Below are positions 16,029 to 29,974 of a stretch of DNA of 64,000 nucleotides, in pieces. Source of the DNA: Acidobacteriota bacterium (lineage in GTDB: Bacteria > Acidobacteriota > Vicinamibacteria > Vicinamibacterales > UBA8438). The DNA lies in the NCBI GenBank assembly GCA_009838525.1, contig VXRJ01000034.1, positions 186,640 through 250,639 of the forward strand. Reading direction: 5' to 3'. Every line of letters begins with the position of its first letter. The first letter of the stretch is position 1. Below the pieces are notes generated by a model. The model worked only from the letters and a program-made list of their open reading frames with translations. It did no database searches and had not been told where the DNA came from. The position numbers were made by a program, and so were the translations under genes.

Positions 16029-16545
16029 GTGGGACGTTCCGCAACGAAATCTGAGAGCAGCAAGCGGGATGCGAGGACCAAGCTCGCCGAGCACCGCCTG
16101 AGCGTGTTGGAGTTGGCCCGGGAGCTAGGGAACGTCGCCGAGGCGTGCCGCCAGCGCGGACTGGATCGGACGAGCTACGAGGGGAAGCGGCGCTTCCAGA
16201 CCCACGGGTTCGAGGGTCTGAAGGACCTGCCGCCGATCCACAAGAGCCATCCCCAGACGACGCCGCCGGAAACGGTGGAGCGGATCAAGGAACTGGCGCT
16301 GAAGCACCCGGCGTATGGTTGCAACCGTCTTGAAGCGATGCCGTCGCTGGAGGGCCGGCGGGTGTCGTAGATCACGATCCAGAAGATCCTCAACGACAAC
16401 GGTCTGGGCGCGCGGCATGACCGGTTCCTGCATGTCCCCAAGCAGCCCGAGGCCGCGGTGGCGGTATTACACGGCATCGAGCATCGTCTGCTACGAGAGC
16501 GTCGAGGCCCTAGAGGAACCACACCAGACAAGAATGACGTTTACA
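16029..16545 (+). pseudogene. IS481-type transposase remnant
   Basis: The frame from GTG 16029 encodes a helix-turn-helix segment typical of IS481 or integrase-core transposases (LARELGNVAEACRQRGLDR, then GFEGLKDLPPIHKSHP and HPAYGCNRLEA). It meets a TAG at 16368, after which the same frame continues with ITIQKILNDNGLGARHDR, so the stop interrupts a once-continuous gene. That segment is then joined directly to FLHVPKQPEAAVAVLH, a motif that in intact members lies well inside the DDE core, implying an internal deletion. Beyond about 16480 similarity is lost. No terminal inverted repeats or target duplication were recognised. The fragment sits between the PKS promoter and the kinase gene and marks past insertion. 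Confidence 0.75.
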
Positions 16546-16566
16546 TATACATTTCGGGTCTTTATC

Positions 16567-18981
16567 ATGAATTCAGTTGTTATTCTTCCGATAGATGGCT
16601 TTGAGCCTTACTATCATCGGCATGGCAACGAGAGCCACTTGAACGGTCCTGACGAACTGAAACGCGAGAACGCGGCACTACGTGACCGCATCTCCGCGCT
16701 CAGCGCGGCCATCCTGCGGATCAGCGCGAGCCTCGATGTCCACACCGTGCTGCGGGAAGTCGTCGACAGCGCCTGCGCGCTGATTGGCGCCCGCTACGGC
16801 GTGATCACGACCGTCGACGACGCCGGGCAGCCCCAGGAGTTCGTCACTTCCGGCTTCACGCCGGAGGAGCGCCAGGAGTTGGTCGACTGGCCCGAGGGGC
16901 CGCAGCTCTTCGCGCACTTCAAGAGCCTGACGGGCGCGGTTCGGCTCAACGACCTGCACGCCTACGTCCGGTCGCTGGGCTTCGCTCCGGACCTGATGCG
17001 CGAGAAAACCCTGGCCGGCACGCCCATGCGCCACCACGGGGCGCATGTCGGTAGCTTCTTCCTCAACGGGAAGCAGGGCGGGCCGGAGTTCACGCGCGAG
17101 GACGAAGAGATCCTGGTCCTGTTCGCCTCGCAGGCGGCGGCGGCGATAACCAACGCCCGCAAGCACCGCGACGAGCAGCGGGCGCGGGCCGATCTGGAGG
17201 CCCTGGTCGACACCTCGCCGGTGGGCGTCGCGGTCTTCGACGCCCGGACCGGCCATCCGGTGTTGTTCAACCGGGAGGCGAAGCGGATCGTGGGCAGCCT
17301 GGCCGCGCCTGACCGCCCGCCGGAGGAGCTGTTGGGGGTGCTGATCTGCCGGCGCGCCGATGGCCGGGAGGTGGCCCTCGACGAGTTCCCGCTGGCGGAG
17401 CAGTGGACCGATCCCGAGACGGTGCGTGCCGAGGAAATGGTGCTCTCGGTCCCCGACGGCCGGAGCGTCCGGACGCTGGTCAACGCTACGCCGATCCGCT
17501 CGGCGGATGGTGCGGTCGAATCGATGATCGTTACCCTGCAGGACCTGGCGCCGCTTGAGGAGCTGGAGCATCTGCGGGCCGAGTTCCTCAGCATGGTGAG
17601 CCACGAGCTGCGGGTCCCGCTCACCTCGATCATGGGCTCGACGGCCGCCGCGCTGGGCGCCGCACCGCCCGACCCGGCCGAGACGCGCCAGTTCTTCCGG
17701 ATCATCGACGAGCAGGCCGACCACATGCGTGGCTTGATCAACGACCTGCTGGACGCGGGGCGCATCGAGACGGGCACGCTGACGATCGCTCCCGCGGCAA
17801 CGGAGGTGGCCGGCCTGGTGGACGAGGCCAGGACCACGTACCTCAGCGGCGGCGGCCGGCACCCGCTGGAGATCGACCTGCCGGCCGACCTGCCGCAGGT
17901 GATGGCCGACAGACAGCGCATCGTCCAGGTTCTCAACAACCTGCTGTCGAACGCGGCGCGGCACGCTCCCTCCTCGTCGCCCATCCGGGTCGCGGCCGAG
18001 CGGGACGGCGTCTACGTGGCGGTCTCGGTCTCCGACGAAGGCCGGGGCGTGCCGGCGGACCGGCTGCCGCTGCTGTTCCGGAAGCGCGGTGGCTTCGCTG
18101 CGGCCGATCCGGCGCGCGGGTCCGGAGGGCTCGGCCTCGGCATCTGCAAGGGACTGGTGGAGGCCCACGGGGGCCGCATCTGGGCCGAGAGCGAAGGCTC
18201 GGGGCTAGGCACGCGCTTCTCGTTCACGATCCCGGTGGCCGACGAGGCGGCTGCCGCCACCCCGGCCGGCTCCGGTGCGGACGCTTCGCCGCCGGACGAC
18301 GGCCGGACGCGCGTCCTGGTTCTCGACGACGACCCGCAGACGCTGCGCTCGGTTCGGGACGCGCTCACGGCGGCCGGCTACTCCCCCGTCGTGACGGGCG
18401 ACCCGGAGGAGCTGGCTCGGCTCGTCGAGACGAAGCAGCCTCAACTGGTCCTGCTCGACCTGAAGCTGCCGGGGGCGGACGGCATCGAGCTGATGCACCG
18501 CGTCCCCGAGCTGGCCGAGTTGCCGGTCATCTTCATCTCAGGCTACGGCCGCGACGAGACCATCGCGCGGGCCTTGCAGGCCGGCGCCGCCGACTACATC
18601 GTCAAGCCCTTCTCGCCGACGGAGCTGACGGCCCGGGTGCGGGCGACGTTGCGGCGGCTCGGCGACGTGGAGCCGTTCCGGCTCGGCGACCTCGCCATCC
18701 ACTACGAGGAGCGCCGGGTGACGGTCGCGGGCCGCACGGTGCGGCTGACGGCCACCGAGTACGAGCTGCTGCGCGCGCTGTCGCTCAACCCGCGACGGGT
18801 CCACACCTACGACGCGCTGCTGGGCCAGGTGTGGCGCGGCAAGAAAAAAGCCAACGTGCCGCGGTTGCGCGCCTACGTGAAAAGGCTCCGCCACAAGCTG
18901 GGCGATGACGCGGAGCGGCCAGCCTACATCGTGACCGAGCGCCGGGTCGGCTACCGCATGGCCCGGCCGGACGACCCGTGA
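16567..18981 (+). CDS. hybrid protein: GAF-PAS sensor histidine kinase fused to an OmpR-type response regulator
   Basis: 804 residues from ATG 16567 (MNSVVIL); an in-frame ATG at 16534 is possible, and upstream codons belong to the transposase relic. Domains in order: short coiled start, GAF (about 40-195), PAS-like (about 205-320), HisKA with phospho-acceptor H346 (MVSHELRVPL), HATPase with N box NNLLSNAARHAP and G box GLGLGICKG, receiver with acidic pair LDDDPQ, phospho-acceptor D631 (LLDLKLPG) and Lys in VKPFS, then a winged-helix DNA-binding domain (about 695-800; LTATEYELLRAL). Sensing, phosphotransfer and promoter binding thus lie in one soluble polypeptide with no membrane segment, which is uncommon for OmpR-type regulators. 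The start region is AT-rich compared with its surroundings. Targets are unknown; the next intact gene in the same direction is 19639. Confidence 0.88.
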   Translation: MNSVVILPIDGFEPYYHRHGNESHLNGPDELKRENAALRDRISALSAAILRISASLDVHTVLREVVDSACALIGARYGVITTVDDAGQPQEFVTSGFTPEERQELVDWPEGPQLFAHFKSLTGAVRLNDLHAYVRSLGFAPDLMREKTLAGTPMRHHGAHVGSFFLNGKQGGPEFTREDEEILVLFASQAAAAITNARKHRDEQRARADLEALVDTSPVGVAVFDARTGHPVLFNREAKRIVGSLAAPDRPPEELLGVLICRRADGREVALDEFPLAEQWTDPETVRAEEMVLSVPDGRSVRTLVNATPIRSADGAVESMIVTLQDLAPLEELEHLRAEFLSMVSHELRVPLTSIMGSTAAALGAAPPDPAETRQFFRIIDEQADHMRGLINDLLDAGRIETGTLTIAPAATEVAGLVDEARTTYLSGGGRHPLEIDLPADLPQVMADRQRIVQVLNNLLSNAARHAPSSSPIRVAAERDGVYVAVSVSDEGRGVPADRLPLLFRKRGGFAAADPARGSGGLGLGICKGLVEAHGGRIWAESEGSGLGTRFSFTIPVADEAAAATPAGSGADASPPDDGRTRVLVLDDDPQTLRSVRDALTAAGYSPVVTGDPEELARLVETKQPQLVLLDLKLPGADGIELMHRVPELAELPVIFISGYGRDETIARALQAGAADYIVKPFSPTELTARVRATLRRLGDVEPFRLGDLAIHYEERRVTVAGRTVRLTATEYELLRALSLNPRRVHTYDALLGQVWRGKKKANVPRLRAYVKRLRHKLGDDAERPAYIVTERRVGYRMARPDDP

Positions 18982-19064
18982 CGGCCTCGTAACGCGTCCC
19001 GGAATCCGGGGTGCAAGAACCAGACCCTCTGTTGGCTACTCAGGCAGGGCGAGTCGCCTAATTC

Positions 19065-21956: not shown

Positions 21957-22157
21957 ATGACCACGAGACTTCTCACGCTCCGCGACGTGACGGGGATGAC
22001 CGCCCTGTCCCGCTCGGCCGTCTACGCCCTGATGGCCGAGTCCCGCTTTCCGAAGCCGATCCGCATCGGCAGCCGGGCGGTCCGCTGGGTCGAGCAGGAG
22101 GTGCTCGACTTCATCGCCAGCCGTCCCCGAGCTGGTTCGGATCGACCCGCCGCATAG
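21957..22157 (+). CDS. AlpA-type phage/element transcriptional regulator (excisionase-like)
   Basis: 66 residues; ATG 21957 has GGAG eight bases upstream. The sequence RLLTLRDVTGMTALSRSAVY and later FPKPIRIGSRAVRWVEQEV are the hallmarks of the AlpA family of MerR-like winged-helix proteins. These typically control the integrase of P4-like islands or act as excision factors. The tyrosine integrase at 24596-25828 is the natural partner. The AT-rich dyad upstream and its counterpart upstream of the integrase are candidate binding sites. The short C-terminal tail (RPRAGSDRPAA) is likely disordered. Confidence 0.9.
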   Translation: MTTRLLTLRDVTGMTALSRSAVYALMAESRFPKPIRIGSRAVRWVEQEVLDFIASRPRAGSDRPAA

Positions 22158-22567
22158 CCGAGACGCCATCGTCTTCACGACCGGCAGCCACGAGGAACCG
22201 GCGGTGACGAAGAGCGACGGACGACCTGCGGTCGTCGCTGGCTCATGGTCCGTTAGGAGCCATGAGCCAGCAGACCCGATGTGCTACATCGGACTGGCGA
22301 GGGGACGCTGCGCGCCCCCTTCGAACCCCCGCCGTTGCGCCGCCCGGCCGTGCCGGTTGGCGGTTCGCTCGGTCCCCGGGACCTGCGCCGTTCCGGCCCC
22401 TGGCCGGGGCCGCCATATGCTTGCGGGCGCGGTCGCGCGGGCCAGCCCTGTGGCGGGTGTCCCCTCACCGTTGCCGCTGGTATCATCTCGTGGCAGGCCG
22501 TCGCTGAGCGAGCGAGTTCCCCGCGTCTGGCGCCACCAATCGCGCTCCGCTGACAAGAGACCGACCC
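22158..22567. other. 410-base noncoding stretch between the AlpA-like and HU-like genes
   Basis: A plus-strand open frame from GTG 22204 runs through here and into the HU gene in another frame, but it has Pro/Arg/Cys-rich composition and no family motif, so I do not call it. I see no tRNA, repeat or clear promoter; the HU gene promoter must lie in the right part. Confidence 0.45.
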
Positions 22568-22894
22568 GTGACCGAAGGCAAGTTGACCAAGGCTGCGCTC
22601 GTCGAGGAGGTGGCCCAGGTGGCCGATGTTCCGCAGAAGGCCGCCGAGTCCGTCGTCGAGACCGTGCTCGGCAGCATCGTCGAGTCGCTCCGCCGTGGGG
22701 AGAAGGTTGAACTCCGCGGCTTCGGCAGCTTTCGCCTTCGCCGCCGTGCTCCGCGCCTCGGCCGCAACCCCAGGTCCGGCGAGTCGGTGCACGTGCCGTC
22801 GAAGCGCGTCGCCTACTTCAAGGCGGGCAAGGAGCTGAAGGCGTCGGTCAACGGGCAGCCGGCACGACCCGTACCGCCGCCGATGTCCGAGTAG
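22568..22894 (+). CDS. HU/IHF-family DNA-binding protein
   Basis: 108 residues from GTG 22568. The core matches bacterial HU/IHF proteins: LTKAALVEEVAQVADVPQKA (dimerising helices), GEKVELRGFGSFRLRRR, then the DNA-intercalating arm region GRNPRSGE and the terminal KAGKELK helix. An extra Pro-rich tail (about 15 residues, RPVPPPMSE) extends beyond the usual 90-100 residues. It bends DNA. Placed inside the putative integrative element, it may assist the integrase synapse as IHF does for lambda-type recombinases (inference), though a housekeeping nucleoid role is equally possible. Confidence 0.93.
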   Translation: MTEGKLTKAALVEEVAQVADVPQKAAESVVETVLGSIVESLRRGEKVELRGFGSFRLRRRAPRLGRNPRSGESVHVPSKRVAYFKAGKELKASVNGQPARPVPPPMSE

Positions 22895-23555
22895 GCCGGT
22901 GTCGAACCGCAATCCCGTCTCGTCGTCGCCTGCATCACATACCACCGACGCCTAATTCGCCGCGCCAGCGTGTGATTCAGTCAGCGCCCCTCGATCACAG
23001 CCCGAATCACATCCCGCCGGCCCGATCGGCGCACCGGATCGTCCAGTCTTTGCTGGACGGATCACGCCTTCGGCAAAGAAGCGGGCGGACCCAATTGCGC
23101 CGCCCGTAGTGCCGGGAGCGACCCCTCCAAGACCCGCGGTCTTGCGGCGCAATGGGTGTTCCCGAGTCACACCCATCGCGCAGGGGTCGCTCCCGGCGAA
23201 TTGTTCCTTCCAGGAAGGCTGTCGGCGCCGTCGTCAAGGTCGCATCCGGCGCCGTTCCCGTGACGCTGACCGAGCGCACGGCGGCCCCGGTGGCGCCGCC
23301 GGTCGCCGCCGTGGCCACGTCGCCGATCCGGAGGTCGTTGTTCCATGTTCCAACCAGGAGCGACTTGACATCGCCGCGCCAGCGCTGGCTGGAGCACGAG
23401 CGGGTGAAGATCGAGACGGCGGCCGAGCGTCAGCTGAAGGTGCATGGCGAGAACTTGTGCTCGGACGGGGACGCATTGGCTGTGGAACGACCATCGAGCG
23501 GCAGTGCCGCTAGTCTGGGGCATGCGGCCCCATGGCGATTCGCGGGATGGCGCGT
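22895..23555. other. 660-base noncoding stretch rich in inverted repeats
   Basis: No convincing gene on either strand. It contains a simple hairpin at 23039-23058 (CGTCCAG, 6-base loop, CTGGACG), the large branched structure at 23111-23197, and a GC-rich Pro/Ala-codon-like run at about 23270-23320 that is probably not translated. The HU and outer-membrane genes converge on this stretch. Confidence 0.5.
23111..23197. repeat. 87-base three-way-junction inverted-repeat structure
   Basis: Outer arms of 16 bp are perfectly complementary (23111-23126 with 23182-23197; GCCGGGAGCGACCCCT and its complement). Between them are two further hairpins: CAAGACC/GGTCTTG with a CGC loop (23128-23144), and a 13-bp stem with one mismatch (23147-23159 with 23169-23181) and a 9-base loop. 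Only about three junction bases are unpaired. It could be a structured RNA, a bidirectional terminator, a cruciform recombination site or a non-autonomous mobile repeat; the sequence alone does not decide. Confidence 0.7.
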
Positions 23556-24449
23556 TCAGAACCGGTACTTCAGGTTGAGACTGACGCCCCAGAACCGGCT
23601 GGCGTCCGTCGTCATCCGGTACAGGATGGTCTCGCCCCGTCCGACGCTCGACTCGTGGCTGCGAAGCTGGTTCCAGGGCAGCGGCTCGCTCGTGAACTCG
23701 CCGAAATCCACCCAGCGGAACCTCACGCCCAGCGTCACCGGTGCCCGGAGCTGGTAGTCCACCCCCGCGAGCAGTTGGTAGCCGGCCAGGACGTCGGTGA
23801 GCCGTGCGTCGCCGATCGTGGTCGTGCCGGCGATCTTGGCGCGCAGGAGCGGATCGGCAAACGTCGAGATCCGTTCAGGGTCATCGTTGCGCTTCCACAC
23901 GGACTCGTAGTCGAGCGATGCCCGCTCGATGCCGAACCCGGCGCCGAGGTACGGCGTCCAGGCTGCCGACGCCCCGAAGTCGTAGTACGCGTTCACGAAG
24001 GCGCCGTGCGACCGCCAGTCGTCGACGCCGCCAACCGCCAGCTCGATCTCCTGCTCCCCCTTGTCCAGCGTCACGTCGTCGAAGATGTCGATGTCTGACT
24101 GATCGCCATAGATCGTTACGCGGTGGAAGTACTCGCCTTCGAGCCGGACAGGTCCCCAGTCGTAGCCGAGCGCGACGCCCGCCCGGAAGCCGGCGCCCCC
24201 GTCGAACTCGTTGGTCCACGCCGTGAGCGGTGGAGCGGCGTCGCACTCGCCGGCGGCCTCGACGCCGAGCGGGTTGATGATCAGGTCACACTTCGTGCCC
24301 CAGTCGTTGTCCGACCCGTGCACGGTGAGGGGCGGTGCAAGGCTTGTCCCCAGGTCCATCTCGATATACGGCCCGGTCTGGCCCCGGGCGTCGTTGGCGC
24401 ATACGGTCAAGACTGTCATCGCCGTGACAAGTCCGAATCGCCGGTGCAT
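23556..24449 (-). CDS. outer-membrane beta-barrel protein
   Basis: 297 residues from ATG 24449, which has GGAG about six to seven bases upstream. A Sec signal peptide is evident (MHRRFGLVTAMTVLTVCANDARG, cleavage before QTG). The mature part alternates amphipathic strands (FRAGVALGYDW, VRLEGEYFH, PYLGAGFGIER, VTLGVRFRWVDF) and ends in LNLKYRF, the terminal Phe signature for outer-membrane insertion. It belongs with Opa/OmpA-like surface barrels of about eight strands; no peptidoglycan-binding domain is present. It lies inside the putative integrative element, so it may be cargo that changes the host surface (inference). Two Cys in an exposed loop (residues about 55-70) could form a disulfide. 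Confidence 0.8.
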   Translation of the reverse strand: MHRRFGLVTAMTVLTVCANDARGQTGPYIEMDLGTSLAPPLTVHGSDNDWGTKCDLIINPLGVEAAGECDAAPPLTAWTNEFDGGAGFRAGVALGYDWGPVRLEGEYFHRVTIYGDQSDIDIFDDVTLDKGEQEIELAVGGVDDWRSHGAFVNAYYDFGASAAWTPYLGAGFGIERASLDYESVWKRNDDPERISTFADPLLRAKIAGTTTIGDARLTDVLAGYQLLAGVDYQLRAPVTLGVRFRWVDFGEFTSEPLPWNQLRSHESSVGRGETILYRMTTDASRFWGVSLNLKYRF

Positions 24450-24595: not shown

Positions 24596-25828
24596 TCATC
24601 GGTGGAGCGGGGCGGCCTGCCGACATCCTCCGTCCAGGTACTCGGCCCAATCGTCCATGAGCCGCCGCCGACGCTCGAACAGGTCCGACCGCGCGTAGGC
24701 GGCCTCGACCTTGTTTTGGACGACGTGAGCCAGCGCGGCCTCAATGACCTCGCGCGGGTGGTCCGTCTCCTCCGCCGCCCAGTCCCGGAAGCTGGAGCGG
24801 AAGCCATGCGCCACGGCGGCGATCCGATGGTACTGGAGCATCTTCGGCAGCGTCGACGCCGAGATCGCCTTGCCGCTCCGCATGGGAAACACGAGCGGGC
24901 CGCCGTCGCCGAGCGCCCGCGCCGCCTCGAGGATTTCGAGCGCCCTCCCGCACAGCGGGACCCGGTGCTCCCGCTTCGCCTTCATCCGCAGCGCCGGGAC
25001 GGTCCACACGCGGCCGGCCGTGTCCATCTCGTCCCACGTCGCAAGCCTAACCTCCGCCGACCGAGCGGCCGTGAGCACGAGAAACTCGAACGCCAGCTTG
25101 ACGGCGGGCTGCCCGGACTTCGACGTCCGCACGGTCTCGATGGCCGCGGCCACGTCCTTGTGGGGCAGCGCCAGCCGGTGCGTCACGATGTCGTTCTGCG
25201 GGCCGAGCACCGGCAGCACGCGGTCGCATGGGTTGTCGTTCCGCATATCGAGCGCGATCGCCCACTCGATCACCGACCGGATGCGCTGGCGCACCGCCCT
25301 GGCCGTCTCCGCCTTGACGTGCCAGATGGGAGTGAGGATCTCCAGCACGTCGGCCGTGCTGACCTCGGAGACGGGCCGGCGACCGATGCGCGGGAAGGCG
25401 TACCGCTCCATGCTGTTCCACCAGGTCTGCGCGTGCCACCGGCCGCGCCAGCCGCCGCGCTTCTGCTCCAATACGCGCTCGGCGGCCTCGGCGAAGGTGG
25501 GAACGCCGTCAGCGCGGCGTTTCTCGGAGAGCGGGTCGCCGCCGGAGCGCGCCAGCTTGCGGTTGGCCAGGGCCAGCTCGCGGGCCTCGGCCAGTGTGAC
25601 GAGCCCGGCGGCGCCGAGTCCGAGTTCGCGGCGGCGTCCTCGGATGACGATCCGCTGGACCCAGCTTCGCGTTCCGGTGGGCTGGACGAACAGGTACAAC
25701 CCGTTCCCGTCCGCGTGCCGTCCCGGCGGTGCGGACCGGACGAAGGCGGCCGAGAGCGCCCTTTCGGGATGGCGTCCTCGGCGCTTGGTTCTGCGGCGTG
25801 CAGGGGTGGTTTCGGCTACAACATCCAT
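24596..25828 (-). CDS. P4-type tyrosine integrase
   Basis: 410 residues from ATG 25828; the GGGGG tract directly upstream is closer than ideal, so the start could vary slightly. The N-terminal region (PPGRHADGNGLYLFVQPTG) is the DUF4102-like arm-binding domain of P4/CP4-57 integrases, followed by the SAM-like core-binding domain (TFAEAAERVLEQ). The catalytic domain shows Arg in TAARSAEVRL, the H-x-x-R box HGFRSSFRDW, a His in LAHVVQNK and the nucleophile Tyr in AAYARSDL. Such enzymes insert islands site-specifically, usually at tRNA ends; no tRNA was recognised here. With the AlpA-like regulator at 21957 it defines an element of about 4 kb. The AT-rich 32-bp copy at 25897 lies directly upstream. 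Confidence 0.95.
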   Translation of the reverse strand: MDVVAETTPARRRTKRRGRHPERALSAAFVRSAPPGRHADGNGLYLFVQPTGTRSWVQRIVIRGRRRELGLGAAGLVTLAEARELALANRKLARSGGDPLSEKRRADGVPTFAEAAERVLEQKRGGWRGRWHAQTWWNSMERYAFPRIGRRPVSEVSTADVLEILTPIWHVKAETARAVRQRIRSVIEWAIALDMRNDNPCDRVLPVLGPQNDIVTHRLALPHKDVAAAIETVRTSKSGQPAVKLAFEFLVLTAARSAEVRLATWDEMDTAGRVWTVPALRMKAKREHRVPLCGRALEILEAARALGDGGPLVFPMRSGKAISASTLPKMLQYHRIAAVAHGFRSSFRDWAAEETDHPREVIEAALAHVVQNKVEAAYARSDLFERRRRLMDDWAEYLDGGCRQAAPLHR

Positions 25829-25970: not shown

Positions 25971-27707
25971 TCATTCAGGCAGGGCGAAGACGAAGATGGC
26001 GTTCCCGGCTCTGGGGTTGCGCATCTCCGGCAGCAGATCGGTCGGAATGACACTGGTCCAGCTCGAACCGCCGAGCGGACCGCCGGCCCCGAACGCGATG
26101 TACTGCTTGCCGTCGACCGCATAGCTGATCGGGTAGCCGTTCGACATGGTGGAGAGCCGGCTCTGCCAGAGCTGATCGCCGGTCGCCGCGTCGTAGGCGA
26201 AGATGTAGCGTTCCCAGTCGCCGATGAAGACGAGGCCGCCGGCCGTGGTGAGCGTGGCGGTGTTGTACGGCGCGCGACGGCGGTGGTGCCAGAGCGTGTC
26301 GCCGGTCCGGATGTCCATGGCCCGGACCTCACCCAACTGATCGGGGGCGTCGGGATGGAAGTGGTTCTGCCGGCCCCGCACGCCGCCGGTGCCGCCGCCC
26401 CCGTCACGCCGCTCCACCGGACCGAACGCGGCGGTCTCGCACTGCAGGTTGATCGGGACGTAGAGCGCTGCGGTGTCCGGGTGGTAGGCCATCGCCCGCA
26501 ACGACTTGAAGCCACCCGTGCTCGGGCAGAAGAAGAGCTCCTCGCCGACGTCCACGACGACGCCGTCGCGGTAGGTGAGCTCACCCGTCTCGCGGTTCAG
26601 ATCCATCAGGTTCTGGTAGCCGAGGTCGGTCGCGTTGATGTAGTCGCCGGTTACGCGGTCGAGCTGCCAGAGAATCCCCAGCTTGCCCATGCTGTAGACC
26701 GAAGGCTGTCCGTCCACGTCGATCAGGATTCGCTCGAACGTCTCGTCCATGTCGTGGCTGTCGCCCGGGATGTGCTGGTAGTACCACTGCATCTCGCCGG
26801 TAGCCGGGTCGAGAGCCAGCGTCGAGTTGCTGTAGAGCGCATCGCCGTCGGTGCCGCGGGCGTCGCGCGTCCAGGGCTTCGCCTGCGACGTGCCGTAGTA
26901 GACGAGGCGGTTGACCGGGTCGTAGCTCCCCGGGATCCAGGCGTCGGCGCCGGCGCGGAACAGGAGCGGTAGGTCGCCCCACGAGTCGCCGCCCCGCTCG
27001 CCCGGGCGAGCGATGGTGGACGTTCGCCAGAGAATCTGTCCGGTCCGCCCGTCGACACCGACGATGTAGCAGGTGTCCTCGCGGAACCGCTCGCATCCCC
27101 GCAGGCCGGCAACGACGACGCCGTCCGCGACGACCGGGCCGCTCGAGAAGCCGTAGCCGTCATGGTCGGGGGCGACGTCGGTGTCCCACCGGACGGCGCC
27201 GGTGCGTGCGTCCAGGCCGACGATGTGCGCATCGACAGTGTTCAGCAGGATCAGGTCCTCGTAGATGGCTAGGCTCCGCATCTGCGCCGCCGGGCGGAGC
27301 CGCTCGTCCATTTCGCGGCGGTATTCCCAGATGAAGTCACCAGTGGCGGCGTCGAGCGCCTGCACGACGTTCCCGGGATTGGCGATGTACATCACGCCGT
27401 CACGGACGATCGGTGTCGTCTGCGAAACTCCCGGCTCGAGGCCCCAGGACCAGGCGAGTTGCAGGTCGCCGACGTTGTCGCGCGTAATCTCGTCGAGCGG
27501 GCTGTAGCCCCAGCCGTCGAGCGTGCGCCGCCAGTTGACCCAGTCGCCCGCGTCCGGGTTCTGCAGCACGGCATCGGTGACCGGTCGGACATCGGCCGCC
27601 TGCTGCGCCACGCCCGCCGTTCCCGCCGCGACCAGCGCCGCGCCGATGAGCAGGCCGAAGCGGAGGGGTGACCGGGTAGTACGTCGACGCGCGTTGGCAA
27701 ACGGCAT
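25971..27707 (-). CDS. secreted PQQ-dependent (quinoprotein) alcohol-dehydrogenase-like protein
   Basis: 578 residues from ATG 27707 with GGGAG six bases upstream; the longer frame above it is on non-coding sequence. A Sec signal (RFGLLIGAALVAAGTAGVAQQ) precedes the eight-bladed propeller family core: NWRRTLDGWGYSPLDEI, repeated A-x-D-x-x-TG-x-x-x-W blades (ALDAATGDFIWEY, GLDARTGAVRWDT, TLALDPATGEMQWYY) and a C-terminal GGLVFIGDWERYIFAYDAATG. Family members oxidise alcohols, sugars or aldehydes in the periplasm with PQQ and calcium. There is no CxxCH haem motif, so electrons must pass to a separate cytochrome or quinone. The vicinal Cys pair of methanol dehydrogenases was not seen. It stands alone, divergent from the epimerase gene. 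Confidence 0.88.
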   Translation of the reverse strand: MPFANARRRTTRSPLRFGLLIGAALVAAGTAGVAQQAADVRPVTDAVLQNPDAGDWVNWRRTLDGWGYSPLDEITRDNVGDLQLAWSWGLEPGVSQTTPIVRDGVMYIANPGNVVQALDAATGDFIWEYRREMDERLRPAAQMRSLAIYEDLILLNTVDAHIVGLDARTGAVRWDTDVAPDHDGYGFSSGPVVADGVVVAGLRGCERFREDTCYIVGVDGRTGQILWRTSTIARPGERGGDSWGDLPLLFRAGADAWIPGSYDPVNRLVYYGTSQAKPWTRDARGTDGDALYSNSTLALDPATGEMQWYYQHIPGDSHDMDETFERILIDVDGQPSVYSMGKLGILWQLDRVTGDYINATDLGYQNLMDLNRETGELTYRDGVVVDVGEELFFCPSTGGFKSLRAMAYHPDTAALYVPINLQCETAAFGPVERRDGGGGTGGVRGRQNHFHPDAPDQLGEVRAMDIRTGDTLWHHRRRAPYNTATLTTAGGLVFIGDWERYIFAYDAATGDQLWQSRLSTMSNGYPISYAVDGKQYIAFGAGGPLGGSSWTSVIPTDLLPEMRNPRAGNAIFVFALPE

Positions 27708-28750: not shown

Positions 28751-29974
28751 ATGGAAGCCCACGGAAGTCTGCTACGGCTCACTCGGAAGAACGGCGCGCC
28801 AGCTCAGCTTCTGCGGCGTATTCCTCTTGGTGCCTCCAGCGACAGCGGGGGAGTTGACGAGTCGTTCCTACAGGACTTGCTCTACCGGTACCCGCAGACG
28901 CTGCCAATCGCCGCCATCGATGCAGCGTACGCCGACCCCGTCCCAATCTGCCGCGAACTATCCACGCGAGCCGGCCGCGTGGACGCGCTATATGTCAACG
29001 CTCTCGGCAGGTTGACCCTCGCCGAATTCAAGCTGTGGCGCAACCCTCAGGCGCGCCGCGAAGTGATAGGCCAAATCCTCGACTACACGAAGGAACTTGC
29101 CTCGTGGAGGTACGAAGACCTGCAGCGCGAAGTGTCTAAGGCCCTCGGGACTGACGGGAACACTCTCTACGAACTGGTGAGCAAGCACGAGCCGGGATTG
29201 AATGAGGCCGATTTCGTAGACAACGTGACACGGCACCTGAAGCGTGGCGAGTTCCTGTTGCTGATCATCGGTGACGGCATCCGTGAAGGCGTGGAGAACA
29301 TCGTGGACTTCGTCCAGCGCTACACGGGCTTGCACTTCAATCTGGCTCTGGTGGAGGCCGCTCTGTACCGTGACGGCACCGATCACCTCGTCGTCCAGCC
29401 CCGCGTTCTTGCCCGGACCGAAATAGTGCACCGAATCGTCATCGACGAGGCAACCGGCCGTCGCGTCGGTCCAGATCCGGATCCCGATCCTCTCCCCTAT
29501 GAAGAGCAGAATCTCCAGTTCTGGACCAGGATGCTAGAGGGTTACGCGTTCAAGGCCGTTGACGTGGAGGTCCCGGCGCCGAGCAAGGAATCGACAATCT
29601 ACCTGAAGGTGCCGAATTCCGGTTTCGGCGATTGGGGTCTCTCATTCGGCGCATACCTGTACCGTAAGTCGCCGACGATTGGTTGCTACGTTACCTGCCG
29701 CAAGGACATTCCTTCTGCCGTTCGCGTATACAAGGAACTTGAGACGTTGTTCGAGGAGTTCCGACAGGAGATTGGGAGCGATCTGATTCGGTGGGGCAAC
29801 AGCGCGGGCCGCCCGAGAATTGGATTCAGGCGCAACACCGGGTTGGCTTTTCTGGCGGCAAGTGAGGACCCTGCCAGCCTCGACGATGCCGTCGCGTGGA
29901 TGCGAGAACATCTGGACCGCCTCGTTACGGGTCTCTATCCGCGCTTGCAGCATATGCTCTCCGGGAGGAGTTGA
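28751..29974 (+). CDS. PD-(D/E)XK nuclease-superfamily protein of unknown role
   Basis: 407 residues from ATG 28751; no strong ribosome-binding site is seen. The N-terminal third carries a PD-(D/E)XK-like core: D in RVDALYVNALG, then L-A-E-F-K in LTLAEFKLWRNPQ, followed by REVIGQILDYTKEL, an arrangement typical of restriction-endonuclease-like folds. The C-terminal half (YLKVPNSGFGDWGLSFGAYL, GCYVTCRKDIPSAVRVYKEL) resembles the DUF4268 domain often joined to such nucleases. GC content and codon use are lower than in neighbours, consistent with transfer. A role in DNA defence or repair is possible but not shown, and no partner methylase is adjacent. Confidence 0.7.
   Translation: MEAHGSLLRLTRKNGAPAQLLRRIPLGASSDSGGVDESFLQDLLYRYPQTLPIAAIDAAYADPVPICRELSTRAGRVDALYVNALGRLTLAEFKLWRNPQARREVIGQILDYTKELASWRYEDLQREVSKALGTDGNTLYELVSKHEPGLNEADFVDNVTRHLKRGEFLLLIIGDGIREGVENIVDFVQRYTGLHFNLALVEAALYRDGTDHLVVQPRVLARTEIVHRIVIDEATGRRVGPDPDPDPLPYEEQNLQFWTRMLEGYAFKAVDVEVPAPSKESTIYLKVPNSGFGDWGLSFGAYLYRKSPTIGCYVTCRKDIPSAVRVYKELETLFEEFRQEIGSDLIRWGNSAGRPRIGFRRNTGLAFLAASEDPASLDDAVAWMREHLDRLVTGLYPRLQHMLSGRS

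Follow-up and report, generated by a model that had tools for sequence, protein, structure and literature searches.

A candidate origin of transfer with a three-way-junction core on integrative elements of Acidobacteriota and other bacteria

What is the role of a large, almost fully paired fold that lies in noncoding DNA of an Acidobacteriota bacterium, between an HU gene and a gene for a beta-barrel outer-membrane protein (23556-24449, minus strand)? We analysed a 64,000-nucleotide stretch of contig VXRJ01000034.1 (the window). Folding of positions 23111-23197 exactly reproduced the structure that an earlier note on this DNA had described over 87 bases, a perfect 16-bp outer stem that encloses hairpins of 13 and 7 bp and leaves 3 junction bases unpaired, and the gene assignments bear out its placement between HU and a surface-protein gene. 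The minus strand folds with -70.2 kcal/mol (z -9.3) and the plus strand with -64.1 kcal/mol (z -8.6), and no dinucleotide shuffle was as stable as the native sequence on either strand. The bases directly past the outer stem read GAATTG (plus) or ACTACGG (minus). The absence of a T-run directly after the stem on both strands speaks against an intrinsic terminator, and we agree with the previous judgement that the fold is too elaborate for one. A covariance-model search of the window against Rfam at gathering scores returned no family, and a search of nine element loci at a relaxed threshold gave sub-threshold matches only. Among these, Twister-P5 (E 3.2) appeared at one of the nine loci and was taken as chance.

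The junction is part of a larger unit. Similarity to copies in loci L056, L074, L005, L060, L058, L057 and others places the limits of the conserved sequence at about 22951-23219, so that the coordinates given earlier hold for the junction but not for the conserved unit of ~270 bp. Along this unit, a palindrome is followed by the junction, further hairpins, TGTGA-type direct repeats and an inverted copy of the repeat motif (Table 1). The CCTTCC-type motif of the left palindrome (CCTTCC-GGAAGG) is kept both in solo copies and in copies that reside in ICEs.

Table 1. Parts of the conserved element and of the island that carries it, in window coordinates.
Feature	Position	Strand	Basis or remark
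Whole conserved element, oriT-like unit	22951..23219	-	Extent of similarity and alignment of copies
Left palindrome CCTTCCTGGAAGG	23206..23218	-	Copy alignment
Three-way junction	23111..23197	-	Outer stem 23182-23197 with 23111-23126, core GGGAGCGACCC / GGGTCGCTCCC
Hairpin 1, 13 bp	23147..23181	-	Folding; element-specific motif TGTGAC at 23166-23171
Hairpin 2, 7 bp	23128..23144	-	Folding; sequence varies, pairing kept
Third hairpin CGGGCGG...CCGCCCG	23082..23106	-	Loop GCAAT conserved within the subtype of the window copy
Fourth hairpin GTCCAG...CTGGAC	23041..23058	-	Copy alignment
Two direct repeats TGTGAT, 12-bp spacing, iteron-like	22994..23011	-	
Inverted copy GAATCACA of the repeat motif	22971..22978	-	
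Tyrosine integrase, P4-type	24596..25828	-	PF13356, PF22022, PF00589
AlpA-type regulator/excisionase candidate	21957..22157	+	PF05930
HU-family DNA-binding protein gene	22568..22894	+	PF00216
Candidate att repeat TCAGGCAGGGCGA, far island end	19040..19052	+	Weak 13-mer
Candidate att repeat, 3' end of the PQQ-dehydrogenase gene	25975..25987	+	

The earlier note had proposed to count copies and to look for covariation; the element is not a single copy without covariation, as three copies are present in its own genome, more occur in relatives, and compensatory base changes are found. Two of the three copies lie on another contig, 1.5 kb apart and beside full and truncated integrase genes. A structural model (R1) built from 15 copies located elements in 7 of 60 genomes, all of the same family, and ~25 further same-strand copies occur in six related genomes. 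In the 15 aligned copies, 92.7% of the pair cells are paired, compared with 32-48% when the partner is slid; 10 pairs have changed on both sides, compared with 6.2 +/- 1.5 in shuffles, and 23 cells are double-changed, compared with 8.5 (0 of 500 shuffles), numbers that sequence kinship inflates and that we therefore regard as good but not final support for a fold kept by compensatory changes. The two-hairpin junction is the minimum-energy fold in 90 of 97 distinct copies from many phyla (median z -7.1). In these folds the element strand has more G-U pairs (123 of 3474 pairs) than the complement (73 of 3367), with a binomial p of ~0.001 that leaves relatedness uncorrected.

The hairpins and the repeats are linked by sequence. 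The hairpin-1 motif, TGTGAC in the window copy, recurs in the downstream repeats of the same element. The longest word shared by hairpin 1 and the repeats has 7.73 letters in own pairs and 6.77 +/- 0.12 when partners are swapped (0 of 500 as high), whereas a control region between hairpin 1 and the repeats gives 6.41 and 6.20 letters, respectively. The hairpin-1 motif and the downstream repeats thus co-vary between elements. Identical 6-mers repeat at a spacing of 23 bp in 27 of the 67 distant copies, where 2.5 would be expected; in the near copies the spacing is 12 bp (12 of 27, with 1.0 expected). Both spacings are close to multiples of the helical turn, as for proteins that bind one face of the DNA.

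A stem-core pattern, GGAGCGACCC and GGGTCGCTCC separated by 42-72 bases, gave at least 120 matches in named genomes, chiefly from Acidobacteriota and Gemmatimonadota but also from Gammaproteobacteria and a few others; the invariance of the core among these matches is in part a product of selection, since the pattern itself demanded it. Most of the matches belong to the element family by extra features. Eight distant genomes contain 4 to 25 copies each, and the reversed control pattern gave 0 matches. Phage and plasmid records yielded no element match, and pattern matches in the viral contigs L076 and L077 were rejected as the rest of the element is absent. L082, L093 and L134 were also excluded from the family; they resemble GTAG-type REP hairpins, and the string GGAGCGACC that they have in common with the element probably reflects convergence. 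Most of the data are MAGs, and many of the element-bearing bins presumably come from marine sponges. Sponges are among the habitats of Palauibacterales (PMC10469786). Two ICE segments, in L126 and L147, are 91% identical over 7.9 kb, and their bins are assigned to Gammaproteobacteria and Gemmatimonadetes, which represents either a recent cross-phylum transfer or mis-binning. Element pairs ~250 bp apart recur in several places (L115 6458-6802, L118 436-775, G101:C62, G107:C39/C49/C58 and G105:C78). The pair in L115 is arranged head to head, and the pairs look like two islands joined at their element ends.

We clustered 630 neighbouring proteins into families. One of them, ORF-R (~300-340 aa), is represented by 43 proteins in 40 loci and nearly always flanks the element on one particular side, its stop codon lying mostly 133-174 bp away. 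A coupling-protein (T4CP) family occupies the opposite side, often with its start 36 bp from the element, and tyrosine integrases occur in 36 element loci. Among 94 copies, 18 lie beside both a coupling protein and ORF-R (14 without and 4 with an integrase), 21 beside ORF-R (11 with ORF-R only, 10 with an integrase in addition), and 22 have only an integrase in view. The remaining 33 show none of the three, in short contigs, at contig ends or in 8-kb views. An HU-family gene is located near some other copies too. Genes of a hybrid histidine kinase/response regulator family adjoin several copies (window 16534-18981; L057, L058, L059, L092); they may often be carried as cargo or may flank the insertion site. 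One copy lies near a gene (L063 802-2055) whose start, inspected by eye, looks like that of an IS110-like transposase; no other copy has such a gene nearby, and a link to bridge RNAs was dropped.

A complete conjugation cluster of the MPF_T type is contained on one 98-kb contig (L198, L199). The genes follow in the order integrase, HTH, primase-helicase, a small gene, a 301-aa winged-helix gene, ArdC, VirB11, coupling protein, the element, ORF-R, VirB8, VirB6, a gene in the position of TrbJ, VirB10, VirB9, VirB4, VirB3, VirB2 and AlpA; TrbL and VirB8 are also among the assignments used for this cluster. None of its scanned products matched a canonical relaxase family. The element is located ~8 kb from the integrase gene, inside the transfer operon, and in ICEs it sits between the co-directional ORF-R and T4CP genes. 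This interval is not a universal position, as ORF-R and T4CP overlap with no element between them in two Acidobacteriota ICEs of the same family (L203, L204). The cargo that borders the complete ICE contains an HmaC-like ATPase (L199 13511-16687; PADLOC E 6e-98), which suggests an anti-phage defence system. Three kinds of integrated element have been distinguished, namely ICEs, iMOBs with an oriT and a relaxase, and iOriTs with an oriT only (PMC11389934). If ORF-R stands for the relaxase region, our copies sort into the same three groups.

A search of the relatives with the ORF-R alignment, that is with protein and not with DNA, recovered close homologues in 4 of 7 element-bearing and in 0 of 53 other genomes (Fisher p 7e-5). 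Distant homologues from other families of the order are ~33% identical and are followed by an intergenic region and a coupling-protein gene. In L208 and L212, a long inverted repeat lies in this interval; it carries GAGCGACC...GGTCGCTC or a close variant, and its interior forms no clear three-way junction. These loci were found by protein and not by a DNA motif, and their repeat thus lends unbiased support to the stem core.

We modelled ORF-R with AlphaFold2 (pLDDT 87, 28 sequences). In the predicted model, the N-terminus is similar to winged-helix regulators (Z about 8). A separate model of the C-terminal part (pLDDT 86) matches EndoMS/NucS (Z 7.3), N.BspD6I (6.5), XisH-like proteins (6.2), McrC (5.8) and PaqCI (5.6). 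These best matches are mostly PD-(D/E)XK nucleases, and because single scores this low can be chance, our reading relies on their agreement in kind. SdaI, which combines a winged helix with a nuclease domain, matches residues 91-306 of the whole model (Z 7.8). Foldseek returned no match with E < 0.001 for the ORF-R models, so that the fold assignment comes from a second-look structural aligner. Together, the models point to a winged helix and a PD-(D/E)XK-like fold as the probable architecture. Comparison of ORF-R with Pfam, NCBIfam and PDB sequences gave nothing above chance other than weak winged-helix matches, none of the 28 proteins matched PF13814 (Replic_Relax) at E<=5, and no replication-initiator match was found. 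By eye, the ORF-R alignment (A5) contains no invariant PD...(E/D)xK residues. Because an obvious catalytic motif is absent, ORF-R may be an accessory protein or a diverged relaxase. The gene beside one distant ORF-R homologue (L212:2151-3113) matches PF13814 with E 3e-5 and 24.6 bits, below the cut-off of 25.3; other members of this neighbour gene family (301-343 aa) gave no PF13814 match.

The window copy is a solitary element. Its genome, which is 97% complete, yielded no homologue of ORF-R or of the coupling protein, and the copy could therefore be a relic. We propose from the sequence that it rides on an island of ~7 kb with the integrase, the AlpA-type gene and HU, bordered at 19040 and 25975. 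In the window as well as in G010 and G026, the integrase lies at the 3' end of a PQQ-dehydrogenase gene, and similarity to integrase-less relatives ends at 25975-25978, where the 13-bp repeat of 19040 begins. A direct-repeat search for att sites found this single 13-mer, but 98 of 300 random comparisons also share one; as the repeat by itself is not significant, the borders stay a proposal. The earlier idea of a folded substrate on a mobile element gains support from this integrase-bearing setting and from the multiple copies. A second repeat is present at 22237-22329, a noncoding stretch of ~90 bp (...CCCGATGTGCTACATCGG...) that is 94.6% identical to L005 2667-2757 and 76-80% identical to sequences in L075 and L067; its relatives lie near other element copies in varying orientation. 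Outside the proposed island, the protein encoded at 28751-29974 weakly matches the candidate defence family PDC-S11 (PADLOC).

Our favoured reading, which we consider reasonably probable, is that the element is the oriT of a new family of ICEs that employ MPF_T-type (trb/virB) secretion and lack a recognised relaxase. We infer this function from anatomy, position and distribution: conjugation genes lie alongside (the 18 copies next to T4CP and ORF-R, and L198/L199), the inverted and direct repeats are suited to relaxosome proteins, and the element also occurs alone on elements without transfer genes, as in the integrase-only copies and the window copy. Structure, conservation, the co-variation and phasing of the repeats, the position in conjugation clusters and the association with ORF-R and integrases were computed, whereas nicking, the strand transferred, mobilization in trans and the role of ORF-R are inferred. 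ORF-R, perhaps with a Replic_Relax-like partner, would bind both the phased repeats and their counterpart motif in hairpin 1. Cutting would affect the folded strand, which would then pass to the adjacent coupling protein. The window island would rely on its own integrase for excision and on the presence of a helper ICE for transfer. A further step would make ORF-R the enzyme that nicks the DNA, in a new relaxase class, and would have it recognise a folded three-way-junction oriT by a repeat code, in which hairpin 1 and the phased repeats share one motif; we regard this as possible but doubtful.

Phased repeats and large hairpins also describe replication origins, and the element could serve these mobile elements as a cis-acting DNA site of another kind, either an iteron-type origin or a single-strand initiation site or single-stranded promoter of the leading region, which would turn the transferred single-stranded DNA double-stranded or switch on early genes. 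The G-U excess on the element strand, which suggests that one strand folds singly, and the primase-helicase of the ICE are in line with such a site, but integrase-only islands would gain little from it without an oriT, and ORF-R lacks a match to replication initiators. We consider this fairly unlikely as a replacement for an oriT, with which a replication or initiation role may coexist.

The small structured RNA that the earlier note envisaged has a lower probability still; it could act on the conjugation operon, for instance as a leader that attenuates T4CP expression, or be encoded by the mobile elements and work in trans. Compensatory changes, G-U pairs and the position between co-directional ORF-R and T4CP genes could be understood in this way. 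However, the strand favoured by G-U pairs is antisense to the ORF-R/coupling-protein operon, which mildly disfavours a leader; taken together, the G-U excess and the antisense orientation argue mildly for one strand folded as single-stranded DNA. Phased direct repeats are unexpected for an RNA, the operon is absent around solo copies, and no Rfam family was matched. The phased repeats, the place of the element within conjugation clusters and its occurrence on islands without such a cluster are better explained by a cis-acting DNA site than by a stand-alone RNA.

A REP-like unit, also raised in the earlier note, or a MITE-like one moved by a transposase in trans, would explain the up to 25 dispersed copies per genome, and a few pattern matches with a similar core (L082, L134) are indeed GTAG-type REP hairpins, which we liken to those of Xanthomonadaceae. 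These hairpins contain the string GGAGCGACC as well, but they are simple hairpins with a GTAG foot and have neither the second hairpin nor the phased repeats. In the element family the GTAG/GGAG foot is not conserved and reads CTAC, TTAC or otherwise, the core is a three-way junction, and the copies travel within larger elements beside ORF-R, coupling-protein or integrase genes, with the ORF-R stop and the T4CP start at fixed distances, which makes a non-autonomous transposable unit distinctly improbable. An attachment or recombination site for the integrase (attP or attC-like), to which the integrase genes near many copies could point, is very improbable, because the element lies ~8 kb inside the complete ICE within the transfer operon and the window island has its candidate att repeats elsewhere.

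We compared the candidate oriT with known systems. Like known oriTs and those of iOriT and iMOB islands, it is noncoding, combines inverted with direct repeats and lies beside genes of the coupling-protein or relaxase type, and like iOriTs it occurs as a solitary site on integrase-bearing islands (PMC11389934). It differs from known oriTs in its three-way-junction core with a strongly conserved GGAGCGACC stem, in the duplication of the repeat motif inside a hairpin, and in a neighbouring protein that is no recognised relaxase. A literature search for an oriT with a three-way junction found nothing relevant. The MOBC relaxases, such as pAD1 TraX and CloDF13 MobC, are related to restriction endonucleases (PMC6499999), and PF13814 is called MobC by CONJscan (PMC5357655). 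The winged helix and probable restriction-endonuclease-like fold predicted for ORF-R resemble this class, and a Replic_Relax-like gene adjoins ORF-R in related loci, but ORF-R lacks a PF13814 match, its nuclease motif looks degenerate, and the systems that carry the element are MPF_T ICEs of Acidobacteriota and Gemmatimonadota. Relaxases of the SGI1/MpsA type and TcpM/MobK are likewise non-canonical and reside on integrative mobilizable elements and plasmids (PMC6414798, PMC8152469). MpsA and TcpM/MobK are tyrosine-recombinase-like, whereas the proposed partner ORF-R is not a tyrosine recombinase.

Many conjugation-type secretion systems have no recognised relaxase nearby, and since at least 2011 it has been asked whether some of these MOBless T4SS rely on relaxases of an unknown kind (PMC3158045). 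For one family of such systems, the element offers candidates for both the oriT and its partner protein. It also provides a searchable sequence signature for hitch-hiking islands; its copies number up to 25 in a genome, the hosts are largely uncultured, and there are signs of transfer between phyla. If ORF-R were the nicking protein that recognises the folded oriT, this would explain a set of MOBless systems in Acidobacteriota, Gemmatimonadota and Gammaproteobacteria, together with the many solitary oriTs that surround them.
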